NCBI GenBank assembly: GCA_013166835.1
Contig: JABLTI010000015.1
Span: 1 to 64,000, forward strand
DNA length: 64,000 nucleotides
Origin: Promethearchaeati archaeon
GTDB taxonomy: Archaea > Asgardarchaeota > Heimdallarchaeia > JABLTI01
Direction of reading: 5' to 3'
Shown here: positions 56,471 through 63,599 of the stretch, in pieces
Layout: each line of letters begins with the position of its first letter
How positions within the stretch are numbered: position 1 is the stretch's first letter
Notes under the pieces: model-generated
Databases searched by the model: none
Told to the model about the DNA's origin: nothing
Seen by the model: the letters and a program-made list of their open reading frames with translations, nothing else
Translations under genes and position numbers: made by a program

Positions 56471-57199
56471 TCATATGGATTTCTTGGTTGGCTTCTTAGT
56501 CGCTGTTTTAGTTGTTTTCTTTGTTGTCTTCTTCTTTTGTCGTCTTTTTTCAGCGCTTATTTGTTTGTAGTATTTATGAACTTCTTTGTTGACTATATTC
56601 CTACATAGAAATTCAAAAGTCTCACGAACGTTAATATTACTTTTTGATGAAGTCTCTATAAAACCAATTATGTTTAAATTATGGTCATCTCTTGAATTTA
56701 TAAACTCTTTAACCATTTCAGGTTCTATTTCTCTTTCATCCAAGAGATCATTCTTTGTAGAAACAATAACTATTGGAATGTTTTCATCGCAGTTCTCCCT
56801 AATTAAGGGGATCCATTCATGATACAAAGAAAAGAAAGTATCAATCCTAGTACAATCATAAGCGAGAATGATGCCTTTACTTCCAGAAAGAAACCTATCC
56901 ATAATTTGTCTAAATTGTGGTTGACCAGCAAGATCCCAAACAGACATTACTACTTTGCCAAAATCAGTATCAACGTTATGAGTGAAAAATTGAACTCCGA
57001 TAGTTATCCTGTAGTTATCAAAAAAATCATCCAAGATATAACCCATTGCTCTTTGACAGAGAGTAGTTTTTCCTACCCCCCCAACGCCTGCAATTGAAAT
57101 TTTAACCAAATGACTTTTGCTTCTTTCCAAGGGTAAGCCTGTTTCAAGTGTCTTTCTTGTAATGGTAGACTTAGCATTGTTGGTCTTAGCTGAAGGCAT
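56471..57199 (-). CDS. Ras-superfamily (Rab-like) small GTPase with Lys/Thr-rich C-terminal tail
   Basis: G1 GVGGVGKTT, switch I YRITIGVQFF, G3 WDLAGQPQFR, G4 STKNDLLD, G5 ETSSK; tail RRQKKKTTKKTTKTATKKPTKKSI. Confidence 0.94.
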   Translation of the reverse strand: MPSAKTNNAKSTITRKTLETGLPLERSKSHLVKISIAGVGGVGKTTLCQRAMGYILDDFFDNYRITIGVQFFTHNVDTDFGKVVMSVWDLAGQPQFRQIMDRFLSGSKGIILAYDCTRIDTFFSLYHEWIPLIRENCDENIPIVIVSTKNDLLDEREIEPEMVKEFINSRDDHNLNIIGFIETSSKSNINVRETFEFLCRNIVNKEVHKYYKQISAEKRRQKKKTTKKTTKTATKKPTKKSI

Positions 57200-57279
57200 A
57201 TTTTATTTTAGTAACTCTTTATTTTTAACTTCTTTGTCTGATAAGATGTTGGACAAAGATAGTGAAAATGGCATAAAAA

Positions 57280-57714
57280 TTAAAGTAGCAATGAAATATC
57301 TGAAGCAATTCTTTTCGCTTTTATGGTAATAAATGGTAATCTGCATTTTTTATCGCATTGTAGAAAGAGATAGATCTTCTCATTTGAAAAAGCAATATAA
57401 TTCGCATCTTCAGCTCTAATAATGAAATGATTAATTTCCTTTTTATTGGCTTTTTGTAATTGATTCTTAAGACTCTCAAGTAATTCTAAGGCATCATGTT
57501 CATTTAGAGTTTTAGTGGAATCCCCCCAGCGATTATAACAAAAAATCAATTCTCCTTGTATAGTAAGGATATCTAGTCTGAGAATTCCTCTCATGGAAAT
57601 AAGTTCAGAAACCATTTCACTAATTTCTTTGGGGAAATTTTCAGAAAGATGTGTATATGGTCCATTAGAATTGTGATTGTTATGACTGTTAGATTGTTTC
57701 CTTTTCCTGATCAA
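57280..57714 (-). CDS. roadblock/LC7- or longin-like domain protein
   Basis: MRGILRLDILTIQGELIFCYNRW ... HFIIRAEDANYIAFSNEKIYLFLQCDKKCRLPFITIKAKRIASDIS. Confidence 0.6.
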   Translation of the reverse strand: MIRKRKQSNSHNNHNSNGPYTHLSENFPKEISEMVSELISMRGILRLDILTIQGELIFCYNRWGDSTKTLNEHDALELLESLKNQLQKANKKEINHFIIRAEDANYIAFSNEKIYLFLQCDKKCRLPFITIKAKRIASDISLLL

Positions 57715-58072: not shown

Positions 58073-58594
58073 TTGATTTCTATGGGTCGACGTAAAATAA
58101 TCTCTATAATCGGTGGGAGCGCCCAAACATCTTTGGAAGAAGACAGAGCTATTGCCTTAACCATTGGTAAATTGCTAATCGATAATGGTTATAGAATTTT
58201 ATGTGGTGGGTATGGTGGAGTCATGGAAGCAGTTTGTAAAGGTGCTAAATCCTCAAAAAAGTATAGAGAAGGAGATACTATAGGAATCATCTCGACTCTT
58301 GAATCCGATGATGCGAATGAATTCTGTGACATAGTAATTGCAACAGGAATTCATTATGCTAGAAATCAAATTATTACAGCTTCTGGAGACGCAATTGTTG
58401 CAATTGGTGGAGGATCCGGAACACTGAGCGAAATTGCTTTTGCTTGGCAAATGGGGAAACCCATCTTCTCGTTTAAAAAAACTGGTTGGTCTGGGAAGTT
58501 ATCTGAAATGCAGTTAGATAATAAACGATCCGATACCATAATAGGATATGATACTGCACAACAATTAATAGAAAAACTAAACGCACTATTTTAG
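58073..58594 (+). CDS. SLOG/TIGR00725-like nucleotide-binding protein (LOG-related)
   Basis: IGGSAQTSLEEDRAIALTIGKLLIDNGYRILCGGYGGVMEAVCKGA ... ARNQIITASGDAIVAIGGGSGTLSEIAFAWQMGKPIF. Confidence 0.9.
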   Translation: MISMGRRKIISIIGGSAQTSLEEDRAIALTIGKLLIDNGYRILCGGYGGVMEAVCKGAKSSKKYREGDTIGIISTLESDDANEFCDIVIATGIHYARNQIITASGDAIVAIGGGSGTLSEIAFAWQMGKPIFSFKKTGWSGKLSEMQLDNKRSDTIIGYDTAQQLIEKLNALF

Positions 58595-58721: not shown

Positions 58722-59075
58722 CTACAATTTTATTTGAATATTGCAAACAGGACATACGGGATTATCTTTTAACCAATCTAGTAAATGATTGTGATGAAAA
58801 AGTGAAGTACATTTTGGACAAATTAGGATAACATGTCCTTCTTTCACAGTTTTATTGCATAAAGAATAAATTTGATTCTCAAGATCTCCTTGGAAAACTA
58901 TTGGTTCAAGAATTAATTTAATTTCTGCTTTAGATTCCTTTTGTACAACATCTTTTTCTATTAGAACATCCTGTTCTATTTTATGCTTTTTCACCAGAAT
59001 GCTGTAATAGCTATGATAATTATTGTAATTATATCCGCAAGTGTATAAAGTCCAAAAAACAATAATCGAAACCAA
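58722..59075 (-). CDS. RING-like zinc finger protein with N-terminal hydrophobic segment (degenerate first Cys pair)
   Basis: YSLCNKTVKEGHVILICPKCTSLFHHNHLLDWLKDNPVCPVCNIQIKL. Confidence 0.7.
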   Translation of the reverse strand: MVSIIVFWTLYTCGYNYNNYHSYYSILVKKHKIEQDVLIEKDVVQKESKAEIKLILEPIVFQGDLENQIYSLCNKTVKEGHVILICPKCTSLFHHNHLLDWLKDNPVCPVCNIQIKL

Positions 59076-59193
59076 AGACCTTCACGTTGTCGAATTTCCC
59101 AAATTTCTACCCTACATTTCAGTGATTTCACTGATTATTTAAAACTATAGAAATCTGAGTGATTAAACTTCAAAACAGTTATTCTTTTGTTAA

Positions 59194-59568
59194 TTATTTT
59201 AAGAAATCGAAATCACAAACAGGACAGGTTGTTTCAAGTTCAAACCAATCATCAAAATGATTTTCGTGATAATGAGTATTGCAGCTAGGACAAATATAGA
59301 TTATATCTCCCGAGCAAATTTCCAATTTACAAATCATGCAAATAAAATCTTCTTCACTTTCTTCAATAAATTTTGATTTATATTTTATTTTCTTTTGAAA
59401 TAATTTTAGTTCGTTTTTAATTCTCTTTCTCCTAAGAAATCCTAAAAGGAATCCAATTAAGATAACTGGGCATGGAAAAACAACTCCAAACATAATTACA
59501 AAAATATATGCAATTTCATCCACTATTTGCATTGATAATAAAATGCTAGAAGTAATGACGATAAGCAA
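59194..59568 (-). CDS. RING-like zinc finger membrane protein
   Basis: Two TM helices, then FICMICKLEICSGDIIYICPSCNTHYHENHFDDWFELETTCPVCDFDFLK. Confidence 0.8.
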   Translation of the reverse strand: MLIVITSSILLSMQIVDEIAYIFVIMFGVVFPCPVILIGFLLGFLRRKRIKNELKLFQKKIKYKSKFIEESEEDFICMICKLEICSGDIIYICPSCNTHYHENHFDDWFELETTCPVCDFDFLK

Positions 59569-59762
59569 AGAAATAACTGCACATAGATAACCAATATTAG
59601 GCGATTTTCTTTGTTCGTTGATTTTTAAGCCCCATATAATATTCCTTGTTCAAGTTATTTATTGTAAACTTCTATTTAAATCTAATATTTTCATCTCAAA
59701 ATACCACTACTGGACTACTAATTACTTTGAATTGTTTTTATTTAATATTGAATGAAATTGAG

Positions 59763-59780
59763 GTCTTAAAAAAATGAGAC
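59763..59780. repeat. GTCTTA-A6-TGAGAC hairpin repeat
   Basis: GTCTTAAAAAAATGAGAC, one substitution from the 58679 copy. Confidence 0.6.
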
Positions 59781-59787
59781 TTCTATT

Positions 59788-60258
59788 TCATTTCTTCTTA
59801 TTTCTGGTCTTTAAAGCATTTTGATAATAATCAAAACTGCAAACAGGGCATAAAGTATTGACTTGTAACCATTGAAATAGATGTTCTTCATGATAATAGG
59901 AGTGACAATTAGGGCAATTATGAACATCTTGGTTAATTTCGATATCCCTTTTGCAAACCATACAAATGTAGGTTTTAGATGTATCTTTCAACCTAAATGA
60001 CTTATATTGAGATTTAATAAATTCAATCTTTGTTTGAATGTCGGGTGGAGTTTTCCCTCTACGATAAACGATAAATAAGAAGATTAGTGAGATAGGACAA
60101 GTTATAACCAGAATTATTATGAAAACGAGCAATACTGTTGGAAACATACCTGATACAGTAGTTAAAATGATGATTGATGATATAGCTAATACTAAAAACA
60201 AGATTCCACAGTAAAGTAAGGATTTGCTTATTCTTTTAGTACTAATTATTATCCCCAA
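59788..60258 (-). CDS. RING-like zinc finger membrane protein
   Basis: Two TM helices, then YICMVCKRDIEINQDVHNCPNCHSYYHEEHLFQWLQVNTLCPVCSFDYYQN. Confidence 0.8.
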   Translation of the reverse strand: MGIIISTKRISKSLLYCGILFLVLAISSIIILTTVSGMFPTVLLVFIIILVITCPISLIFLFIVYRRGKTPPDIQTKIEFIKSQYKSFRLKDTSKTYICMVCKRDIEINQDVHNCPNCHSYYHEEHLFQWLQVNTLCPVCSFDYYQNALKTRNKKK

Positions 60259-60778: not shown

Positions 60779-62941
60779 ATGAGTTTCGATCCAACAGATC
60801 TTATACCTATTGAATATCGATCATTATTTGCAATAATTTCTCCTATAGAAAAATCAGGTATATTAAAGATAATAAGAGAAAAATATGCTGAAATGGAAGA
60901 CAAATATGAAGCGTTATTCCTTGGTTTAAAGAATTATTTAACAAAGTTTCAAGGTGAGGATATCTCTTCTCTAGTCTTTATTATGTTTGGACAAATTTCT
61001 TTGGATCTAACTAAAGAAAAAGATATTTCAAACATGGCTGCAGTATATCCATTTTCACCGGAAATGCAATATTATAATATCCAATTGCAAGTAGATAAGG
61101 GAATATTTGACAATATAGAACAAGTAATTTCAAAATCAAGATTAACTGAAGAAGACAGAAATAGGATTTTCAATAGGTTAGTTGCAGCTGATAAATTAGC
61201 AAGCATTATTCTAGATCTTCAAAGCTTTTTACTAGAGATTATGTTTCATGGGATGAAACAAGAATTCGATAAGATAGAGGAATTATCTCAAAAAGCGGAA
61301 GCAATTTGGAAGCGAGCTGTGAAATGGGTAGAAGCGAAAGAAGTTGTTTTTGTACAAGAATTAGCGATTCGTATGGTTTTACAGAAAAGCCAGATATTAA
61401 TGTCTGCACAAAATCTCGATGCAGCTCTTGCTTATTATGAACGAGCTGATATCAAGCAGGTATTGGAATTGAGTAAAAGCACAGTTATGAAAGCTAATAT
61501 TCTGCACGTAAGTGCTATGCTTTATTATAATGCTGGACAACCAACTAAAGGTTTAGACTATCTTGAGAAAGCGGAGAAATTACTAAGAAAAGTTCATGGA
61601 CGTCACTCCTGGAAATCTACTTTCTATCATAATTTAGCTTATATGTATACATTAACAGATTCCGACAGATGTGTAGAAGCTTATGAAAAATGCCTTGATT
61701 TAGTAGAAGGAACAGGCGATTATCAATCAATAGCTACTACACTAAGTAATCTAATAGGACTTCACAATCAAGCAAATAGAAAAGGAGAAGCAAGAAAGTA
61801 TCTAAAACGATTAGTAGAAATTCTAGATACAAGTGAAGAATTAGTGACTCCTTTCAGAGCTTATGCTGTTGCTTCAAATGCTATGACTCTAGATGATTAC
61901 GAATTAGCAGCAAAATATCTTAAGATATTAGAGGAAAAAGTTGCTCAAGCACCAACACTAATGAATAAGGCTATACTCGCAAGCTCAAAATTTGTATATT
62001 ATCTTGATGCAGAGATAAATTCCGAATTGGCATACAAATACGGGGAAGAATCACTCTATTATTTCAATAAACAAAAAGATTATCTCAATGCTTTAGCTTC
62101 AGTATACAATCTAGTAAATACTGATTTACAATTTTACAAAATATCTGAAAAGGAACGATATCTTAGTTCTGCAAAGAAGAGATTAAATGAATTATTAACA
62201 CTTGTTGGAGCATTAGACTTACCAGAATGGGTGGCTACAAAGAATGTTACACTTGCTGGATTTGAGATTCTCTCACAAAATTTGGACGCAGCAGAGAGAT
62301 TCATCAATGAAATACCTGATAGTGAAGATTCGCAAATAACTGCAAACAAGAAAATGATTTCACAATTACTTGAATTCTCAAGAAGAAAGAAATCTGAAGA
62401 AGAAAAAGATGAAAAAGAGATCCTATTCACTGAACCGCTGTTAAATGAAATTGCCACCAATAAAGATGCTGCGAAAGTCATGGTAATGCATGTTCTTGAG
62501 TCAACAATGGAAGAATTAGTACAATTACCACAACAAATCGATCCGATAAAAGCTGATATAAAATTAATTCTTCTAATTAATAATGCAGGATTAACTATTT
62601 ACACAAAAATCTTTGATACTCAGAAGATGAATCAACAATTGATTTCAAATTTCATTTCTGCAATTGATTCATTTGGTAAACAATTATTTGGAACTACAGA
62701 ACCCTATTTCTCCATAAGTAGAGGGAATAATATTATTCTTTATCAAAATGTGACTGATGACTTGAACCTAGCTCTTATTGTTAGCCAAGAGAACTATGAT
62801 GCAGTTATGAAACTAAATACCCTCTCAAAGGAAATATCTGAATTTATGATCGATAAATCTCTAATTCTAAATAAAGAACTCGAAGAATCATCTCCACTAT
62901 ATAACTGGTTAGAAGAAAAAGTTGCTGAATTACTCAGTTAA
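60779..62941 (+). CDS. TPR-repeat protein with C-terminal roadblock/longin-like domain
   Basis: TPR-like units (ANILHVSAMLYYNAGQPTKGLDYLEKAEKLL; STFYHNLAYMYTLTDSDRCVEAYEKCLDLV); C-terminal IKLILLINNAGLTIYTKIFDTQKMNQQLISNFISAIDSFGKQLF...NIILYQNVTDDLNLALIVSQ. Confidence 0.78.
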   Translation: MSFDPTDLIPIEYRSLFAIISPIEKSGILKIIREKYAEMEDKYEALFLGLKNYLTKFQGEDISSLVFIMFGQISLDLTKEKDISNMAAVYPFSPEMQYYNIQLQVDKGIFDNIEQVISKSRLTEEDRNRIFNRLVAADKLASIILDLQSFLLEIMFHGMKQEFDKIEELSQKAEAIWKRAVKWVEAKEVVFVQELAIRMVLQKSQILMSAQNLDAALAYYERADIKQVLELSKSTVMKANILHVSAMLYYNAGQPTKGLDYLEKAEKLLRKVHGRHSWKSTFYHNLAYMYTLTDSDRCVEAYEKCLDLVEGTGDYQSIATTLSNLIGLHNQANRKGEARKYLKRLVEILDTSEELVTPFRAYAVASNAMTLDDYELAAKYLKILEEKVAQAPTLMNKAILASSKFVYYLDAEINSELAYKYGEESLYYFNKQKDYLNALASVYNLVNTDLQFYKISEKERYLSSAKKRLNELLTLVGALDLPEWVATKNVTLAGFEILSQNLDAAERFINEIPDSEDSQITANKKMISQLLEFSRRKKSEEEKDEKEILFTEPLLNEIATNKDAAKVMVMHVLESTMEELVQLPQQIDPIKADIKLILLINNAGLTIYTKIFDTQKMNQQLISNFISAIDSFGKQLFGTTEPYFSISRGNNIILYQNVTDDLNLALIVSQENYDAVMKLNTLSKEISEFMIDKSLILNKELEESSPLYNWLEEKVAELLS

Positions 62942-63113: not shown

Positions 63114-63599
63114 TTATTCATCACAATAGTCTCTGATATATTTAGAAGCGACTTCTAAAAGTGATGGAATGAAGATCTTTTCTTTACCAAGTAATTTTAA
63201 TGTAGATTTAGACATTTTTGATAAAAGGGAGTTTCTTTTGACAGCAAGTAAAATAAATCTATCATTGCAAGCAGGAAGATAAATTGATTTCATCCAAATC
63301 ATGTTAGTTTGAGTGACAAAATAGCTTAAGTCAACTCCTCCAACACCCAAATAATCTGATAATTTCTCTGCAGTATCAGTGATCAAACCAGAAGTTGCTG
63401 AAAAATTATCTCTATTATCCTGTGGATGCATTTCTTCAGCCATAAGTAAACCATTATTATCTGTTATAACACAAGACAGAAAATTACCCTTTTTCTTTAA
63501 TTCTAAGAGTATAATACTGAGAGCTGTGCTACGTGAAACATTAGACTTAGTTAACTTTTTCTTCAATATCTTATCAAATGCTGCTTCTGGGTTTCCCAT
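63114..63599 (-). CDS. roadblock/LC7-like domain protein
   Basis: ALSIILLELKKKGNFLSCVITDNNGLLMAEEMHPQDNRDNFSATSGLITDTAEKLSDYLGVGGVDLSYFVTQTNMIWMKSIYLPACNDRFILLAVKR. Confidence 0.72.
   Translation of the reverse strand: MGNPEAAFDKILKKKLTKSNVSRSTALSIILLELKKKGNFLSCVITDNNGLLMAEEMHPQDNRDNFSATSGLITDTAEKLSDYLGVGGVDLSYFVTQTNMIWMKSIYLPACNDRFILLAVKRNSLLSKMSKSTLKLLGKEKIFIPSLLEVASKYIRDYCDE

Follow-up and report, generated by a model that had tools for sequence, protein, structure and literature searches.

The window, i.e. the whole stretch of 64,000 nucleotides that was analysed (contig C208 of the host genome, G000), carries an array of three consecutive open reading frames, all on the minus strand and each ending in a Cys/His finger according to the list of reading frames of the window (Table 1). 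We number the copies from high to low coordinate, the one at the 60258 end being copy 1 and the one at the 58722 end copy 3. A first-pass annotation had described them as three tandem RING-like membrane proteins. The reading frames and their C-terminal fingers were confirmed, but copy 3 is a pseudogene. The same annotation had assigned two transmembrane (TM) helices to two of these frames: both helices are predicted in copy 1 (residues 10-34 and 39-68) and the hydrophobic segments of copy 2 match them. The intergenic gaps of the array, 222 and 121 bp, give no evidence of an operon.

Table 1. Features of the RING array and of its flanks (positions in the window)
Feature	Coordinates	Strand	Description
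SLOG cluster 4 (LOG-like) protein	58073..58594	+	Flanks the array on its other side; synteny shared with G006, G002 and G004
Copy 3, finger ORF	58722..59075	-	117 aa; decaying pseudogene; first Cys ligand replaced by Tyr
Copy 3, out-of-frame TM segment	58991..59134	-	Ends in TGA; homologous to the TM segment of G002 copy 3
Copy 2	59194..59568	-	124-aa ORF; TM segments and RING finger; Asp at linchpin position
Copy 2, 5' extension of the frame	59569..59649	-	KINEQRKSPNIGYLCAVIS; homologous to the N-terminus of the G002 orthologue
Copy 1	59788..60258	-	156 aa; two TM helices and C-terminal RING finger; TTG start
Copy 1, RING finger	59839..59964	-	Ligands C99, C102, C115, C118, H123, H126, C137, C140
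Copy 1, RING finger, other positions	59839..59964	-	E2-contact residues V101, W130, P138; linchpin position S141
TPR solenoid protein	60779..62938	+	720 aa; C-terminal alpha/beta module; conserved neighbour of the array

Each of the nine genomes of the genus has the TPR neighbour, and the protein was not detected in other members of the class. Its C-terminal module (beta-beta-alpha-beta-beta-beta-alpha) looks roadblock/longin-like by secondary structure alone. This protein was discarded as a clue to function since its model matches TPR solenoids generically and so defines no partner. The gene of a Ras-like GTPase and roadblock-like genes surround the array (56471-57714 and 63114-63599); this arrangement is maintained in G006 and in part also in G002. 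A PADLOC search for anti-phage systems returned nothing for the RING or TPR proteins; a role in anti-phage defence was dropped, the weak match of the SLOG neighbour to ShosA being all that this search gave.

Two of the three copies raise questions of integrity. The ORF of copy 2 as called begins at an internal TTG, and the homologous frame continues upstream to 59649. The extended frame contains no ATG, GTG or TTG, and an upstream ATG lies out of frame across a short A run. The length of an A run in the start region of the copy 2 orthologues varies among three species, being 5, 6 or 7 (window, 59569-59649, minus strand; L063, near 5856; L064:401), and the 7-A version alone is in frame with the ATG. 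This variation in length could result from decay, sequencing error or slippage. As for copy 3, the loss of one of its first pair of Cys had already been noticed and is real (IYSLC, vs VCSLC in G002), but the gene is also frameshifted: its TM segment, which ends in RLLFFGLYTLADIITIIIIAITAFW followed by a stop (58991-59134, minus strand), is in a frame other than that of the finger. In G006, three of the eight ligands of copy 3 are missing; in G002, its finger is intact but the corresponding TM segment is out of frame with it. Copy 3 had been counted as part of a diversifying family; its frameshift and lost Cys mark it instead as a decaying pseudogene. The idea of a neofunctionalised RING was ruled out by the frameshift and by the decay in a sister species.

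The fingers of copies 1 and 2 follow the pattern C-x2-C-x12-CPxC-x4-H-x2-H-x3-W-x6-CPVC. The first-pass annotation gave 8-9 residues between ligands 2 and 3 and five between ligand 6 and the Trp, which were miscounts for 12 and three. The eight ligands are invariant in relatives, and copies 1 and 2 retain all of them in all three species compared. Their order is C-C-C-C-H-H-C-C (C4H2C2), vs C-C-C-H-H-C-C-C (C3H2C3) in canonical RING-H2 fingers. The closeness to RING-H2 spacing that had been proposed is thus not borne out, the ligand set being that of an archaeal variant. The canonical RING-H2 order was found in none of the loci fetched. In copy 1, C99, C102, H123 and H126 would form zinc site 1 and C115, C118, C137 and C140 zinc site 2.

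Homology searches lead to RING domains. The best Pfam model for all three copies is PF13639 (zf-RING_2), with E-values of 6.9e-5, 3.3e-6 and 1.3e-5 for the frames starting at 58722, 59194 and 59788, respectively; copy 2 is the sole copy above the cut-off of this model (27.7 bits vs 27.3). No match above this cut-off was obtained in 14 control genomes. These control genomes, together with the orthologous arrays in sister species, indicate that the resemblance to RINGs exceeds chance. The second commonest model among the relatives, Prok-RING_1 (PF14446), covers the first half of the finger and falls under its curated cut-off in the window proteins. Furthermore, a single-sequence phmmer search with copy 1 retrieved the RING of RNF24 from the PDB (E 1.9e-7). 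A profile of 17 family members, all 17 of which are recognised by zf-RING_2, gave Arkadia as its best PDB match (E 2.3e-10), and nearly all its significant matches are RINGs of E3 ligases. The AlphaFold model of copy 1 (pLDDT 85.8 overall, 92-97 in the finger) combines the two helices with a RING-like finger. With this model, the top 32 Foldseek matches are all RING-H2 E3 domains, some of them in complexes with E2~Ub, with target-normalised TM-scores of up to 0.83. Hence, the predicted fold agrees with the RING superfamily, whose cross-brace binds two zinc ions through eight Cys/His ligands, copy 3 being one ligand short.

The first-pass annotation had named a zinc ribbon or a treble clef devoid of cross-brace topology as the outcome that would overturn it; the predicted fold matches RING-H2 E3 domains instead. 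That the fingers are zinc ribbons or unrelated treble clefs whose likeness to RINGs arose by chance or convergence is most improbable: there are weak matches to zinc-ribbon and HypA models, but the top scores go to RING models, and RING E3s lead both the profile and the fold searches. The zinc-ribbon or HypA-like reading, raised by weak Pfam and NCBIfam matches, was dropped after these searches. The window fingers resemble those of eukaryotic RING-H2 E3s (Arkadia, RNF38, RNF165, RNF24) in predicted fold, E2-contact residues and overall ligand order. However, the eukaryotic domains are C3H2C3 with a basic linchpin, whereas the window fingers are C4H2C2 without it.

The archaeal ubiquitin operon of Caldiarchaeum subterraneum and of Asgard archaea includes an E3 known as small RING finger protein (srfp). 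Ligand spacing identical to that of the window fingers is found in Asgard srfp whose genes lie near E2. RINGs of about 80 aa from such positions share the C4H2C2 pattern in several Asgard genomes, one of these RINGs being 35% identical to copy 1. The srfp of Caldiarchaeum was reconstituted in vitro as an E3 by James et al. 2017, with I30, W58 and R69 being important; in this protein, C3/H4 is displaced and there is one additional Cys, and its activity is impaired by substitution R69A, R69 being the linchpin (PMC5654768). The window fingers share with it the I/V before C2 and the W but lack its basic linchpin. Moreover, srfp are short, soluble and encoded with ubiquitin, E1 and E2, whereas the window proteins have TM helices, occur in tandem and are encoded away from ubiquitin genes. 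The window proteins therefore have the ligand pattern and E2-contact residues of srfp, but neither their operon nor their short soluble form.

The E2-contact positions are strongly conserved. Among 97 distinct fingers, collected with a pattern that fixed the zinc ligands and left the equivalents of I30 and W58 free, the W is present in 97, I, V or L precedes C2 in 97 and CPxC is found in 96. The window RINGs thus possess the hydrophobic residue before C2, the Trp after ligand 6 and the Pro in CPxC that are expected of active RINGs. In contrast, the basic linchpin expected just after C8 is replaced by S, D and N in copies 1, 2 and 3, respectively, the equivalent of R69 having been identified by counting 11 residues from the Trp. 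A basic linchpin is found in 4 of the 25 membrane fingers of the genus vs 45 of the 61 fingers from outside the genus (p = 1.7e-6). Some RINGs of the genus retain K or R at this position, and some srfp encoded near E2 carry G or N. In RNF38, most non-basic substitutions of the linchpin leave minimal activity, and several of these mutants keep measurable binding to E2~Ub and transfer poorly (PMC12326332).

The window itself had been reported to hold no visible ubiquitin, E1 or E2 gene, and it had been advised to look for these and for JAMM genes elsewhere in the genome; a genome devoid of any ubiquitin-like system would have spoken against the E3-like reading. All four are encoded by this genome outside the window, and it thus possesses, at the gene level, the cognate ubiquitin, E1 and E2 that a RING E3 needs in the same cell. 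Ubiquitin (77 aa, contig C194) ends in EGG, with a Gly-Gly terminus. In the E2 (C197:31661-32023), the HPN motif is accompanied by the catalytic Cys, within ICIG, and by two loops that dock RINGs, FPFKPP and WTPA. The genome also encodes a JAMM protein and an E1-like protein. The array on C208 is linked to neither the E2 nor the ubiquitin gene, and the whole genome gives about 15-16 RING-like matches. The JAMM protein L082:2247-3044 (G000:C5; HTHPGMGLFLSGTD motif) has a C-terminal TM helix, from which this candidate deubiquitinase may also be located at the membrane.

The distribution of RINGs and E2s in 119 Asgard genomes was compared, with a profile E-value of 1e-6 or less as the threshold for the presence of a RING. 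Both were found in 82 genomes, a RING without E2 in one (G098), an E2 without RING in none and neither in 36; in other words, the RING profile is present in 83 genomes and an E2-type domain, whose model may also pick up UEV proteins, in 82. This association has a Fisher p of about 1e-29, as calculated on genomes that share ancestry and are not phylogenetically independent. Inside families f9 and f21, RING and E2 are also either jointly present or jointly absent. Hence, the presence of the RING family, taken as a whole, tracks that of the ubiquitin system. Since the RING profile also picks up the operon-encoded srfp, this count covers the whole family and speaks for it rather than for the membrane subfamily specifically.

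These data also bear on whether the fingers might be structural zinc domains of RING fold with no role in ubiquitin transfer, as has been put forward for certain RINGs in large assemblies, GATOR2 among them. One Asgard srfp matches the RINGs of WDR24 and WDR59 in the PDB with aligned ligands (E 0.004-0.006), and these GATOR2 RINGs have the C-x2-C-x4-H-x2-H-x3-W register in common with the window fingers. However, the match score is weak and, unlike the window proteins, WDR24 and WDR59 are subunits of a large soluble complex. A structural role is improbable given the near-perfect phyletic co-occurrence of RING with E2, the invariance of the E2-contact residues and the better scores obtained with RINGs of E3s. 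Some large proteins (frames of ~600-1000 aa) carry the same RING near their C-terminus after an extra CxxC (L096:9790-12807 in G005:C60; L048, L051 and L056 in G000:C142, C60 and C215), a layout that recalls GATOR2 or IFT coat subunits; those that were scanned gave no further Pfam domain.

Comparison of the locus between species points to turnover. Copy 1 is 90% identical to its G006 orthologue, with a dN/dS of 0.10-0.25, and is therefore under purifying selection, whereas copy 2 evolves under looser constraint (0.30-0.49). While the identity between the window and G006 or G002 is 86-97% for the flanking genes, it is about 90% for RING copy 1 and about 50-64% for copies 2 and 3. G006 carries a fourth RING gene that is not in the window, and G002 a remnant of it; eroded copies are found in four genomes (window, G002, G004 and G006) and copy number at the locus ranges from 0 to 4 across the genus. 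RING genes adjoin the TPR gene in seven of the eight genomes that could be examined (window, G006, G004, G007, G008, G003 and G001) and are absent from this place in G005; G002 was left out as its locus is broken by contig ends. In a tree of the fingers, copies 1 and 2 cluster with RINGs from the same locus of other species (support of about 0.8). On these comparisons, the array is best viewed as undergoing birth and death of genes at one conserved locus, where copies are duplicated locally, diverge and are lost; the diversifying family proposed at first is better described in these terms. That the array in its entirety is debris devoid of function is very unlikely. It is true that copy 3 is broken in both the window and G006, that RING remnants occur in G002, G004 and G006 and that the extended frame of copy 2 has no standard start codon, but two species have copy 1 at full length with its low dN/dS, and no ligand has been lost from copies 1 and 2 in the three species.

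Taken together, these results make it reasonably probable that the window encodes archaeal RING proteins of srfp type, anchored in the membrane and acting in the cell's own ubiquitin pathway, which recruit E2 and are weak alone or depend on a partner. The two N-terminal TM helices would form a hairpin with both ends in the cytosol, the C-terminal RING of copy 1 being predicted to fold round two zinc ions. This RING could dock E2 through V101, W130 and P138 and thereby bring E2~ubiquitin to the membrane, where nearby proteins might be tagged for ESCRT-dependent sorting or turnover. Since the linchpin that closes E2~Ub is replaced by Ser, Asp or Asn, each copy is probably a weak ligase by itself or teams up with another RING of the cell that has a linchpin. 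Thus, the "membrane-anchored E3-like" label given at first agrees with the fold, the E2-contact residues, the co-occurrence of the RING family with E2 and the ligand identity with srfp, but E3 activity cannot be taken as given in proteins that lack the basic linchpin. Whether the window RINGs transfer ubiquitin is a matter that a match of fold or sequence cannot decide.

Two further readings deal with this missing linchpin. In the first, which we regard as rather unlikely, the RINGs bind E2 and are catalytically weak, serving as membrane recruiters or as heterodimer partners of a linchpin-bearing RING of the same cell, as BMI1 and BARD1 do beside an active RING. Intact E2 contacts combined with the depletion of the linchpin in the genus, the K or R of some other RINGs of the genus and the behaviour of RNF38 mutants, which bind E2~Ub measurably and transfer poorly (PMC12326332), are consistent with it; however, G or N also occupies the linchpin position in some srfp near E2. 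The second, a tentative and broader proposal, is that Asgard archaea evolved a repertoire of membrane-embedded RING ligases with birth and death like that of plant ATL genes, which would ubiquitylate membrane cargo for the archaeal ESCRT machinery, the linchpin-poor subfamily of the genus activating E2~ubiquitin otherwise, for instance as heterodimers.

The plant ATL family includes tandem arrays, mostly of 2-3 genes, and evolves by birth and death (PMC3161093), as the window array does. ATL proteins (e.g. EL5) and other TM-RING E3s (RNF13, RNF24) also combine N-terminal TM segments with a RING in which the W lies three residues after ligand 6. However, ATL fingers have C3H2C3 ligands and a spacing of their own vs C4H2C2 in the window, and we take the resemblance to ATL and other TM-RING E3s as an analogy and not as descent.

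RING domains in Asgard genomes have been mentioned earlier (PMC11291895) and are already known, as is the E3 function of srfp (PMC5654768). A full-text search of open-licence papers returned neither tandem arrays of membrane-anchored archaeal RINGs nor an account of linchpin depletion, either of which subscription papers and preprints may hold. The coupling of ubiquitin to ESCRT in Asgard archaea has been demonstrated from the side of the ubiquitin reader (PMC9192718); membrane-anchored RINGs bear on which ligases would mark their membrane proteins. The host is a Heimdallarchaeote, judging from the closest relatives that bear a name: an alignment of the family led to three named loci, all of them in 'Candidatus Heimdallarchaeota' MAGs. 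It is a relative of the archaea that gave rise to complex cells, and such archaea may have evolved membrane-based ubiquitin tagging. If true, diversification of E3s and their targeting to membranes would not be exclusive to eukaryotes, and the genus would have a lineage-specific set of membrane RINGs. The array supplies defined proteins that can be assayed with ubiquitin, E1 and E2 from their own genome, and the depletion of the linchpin is a natural experiment on the activation of E2~ubiquitin by RING ligases. RING-like genes number about 15 in the genome of the window and up to 28 in another Asgard genome. In G080, from another Asgard family, the 28 RING matches include tandem RINGs with TM helices and K or R at the linchpin position (L142, L141).
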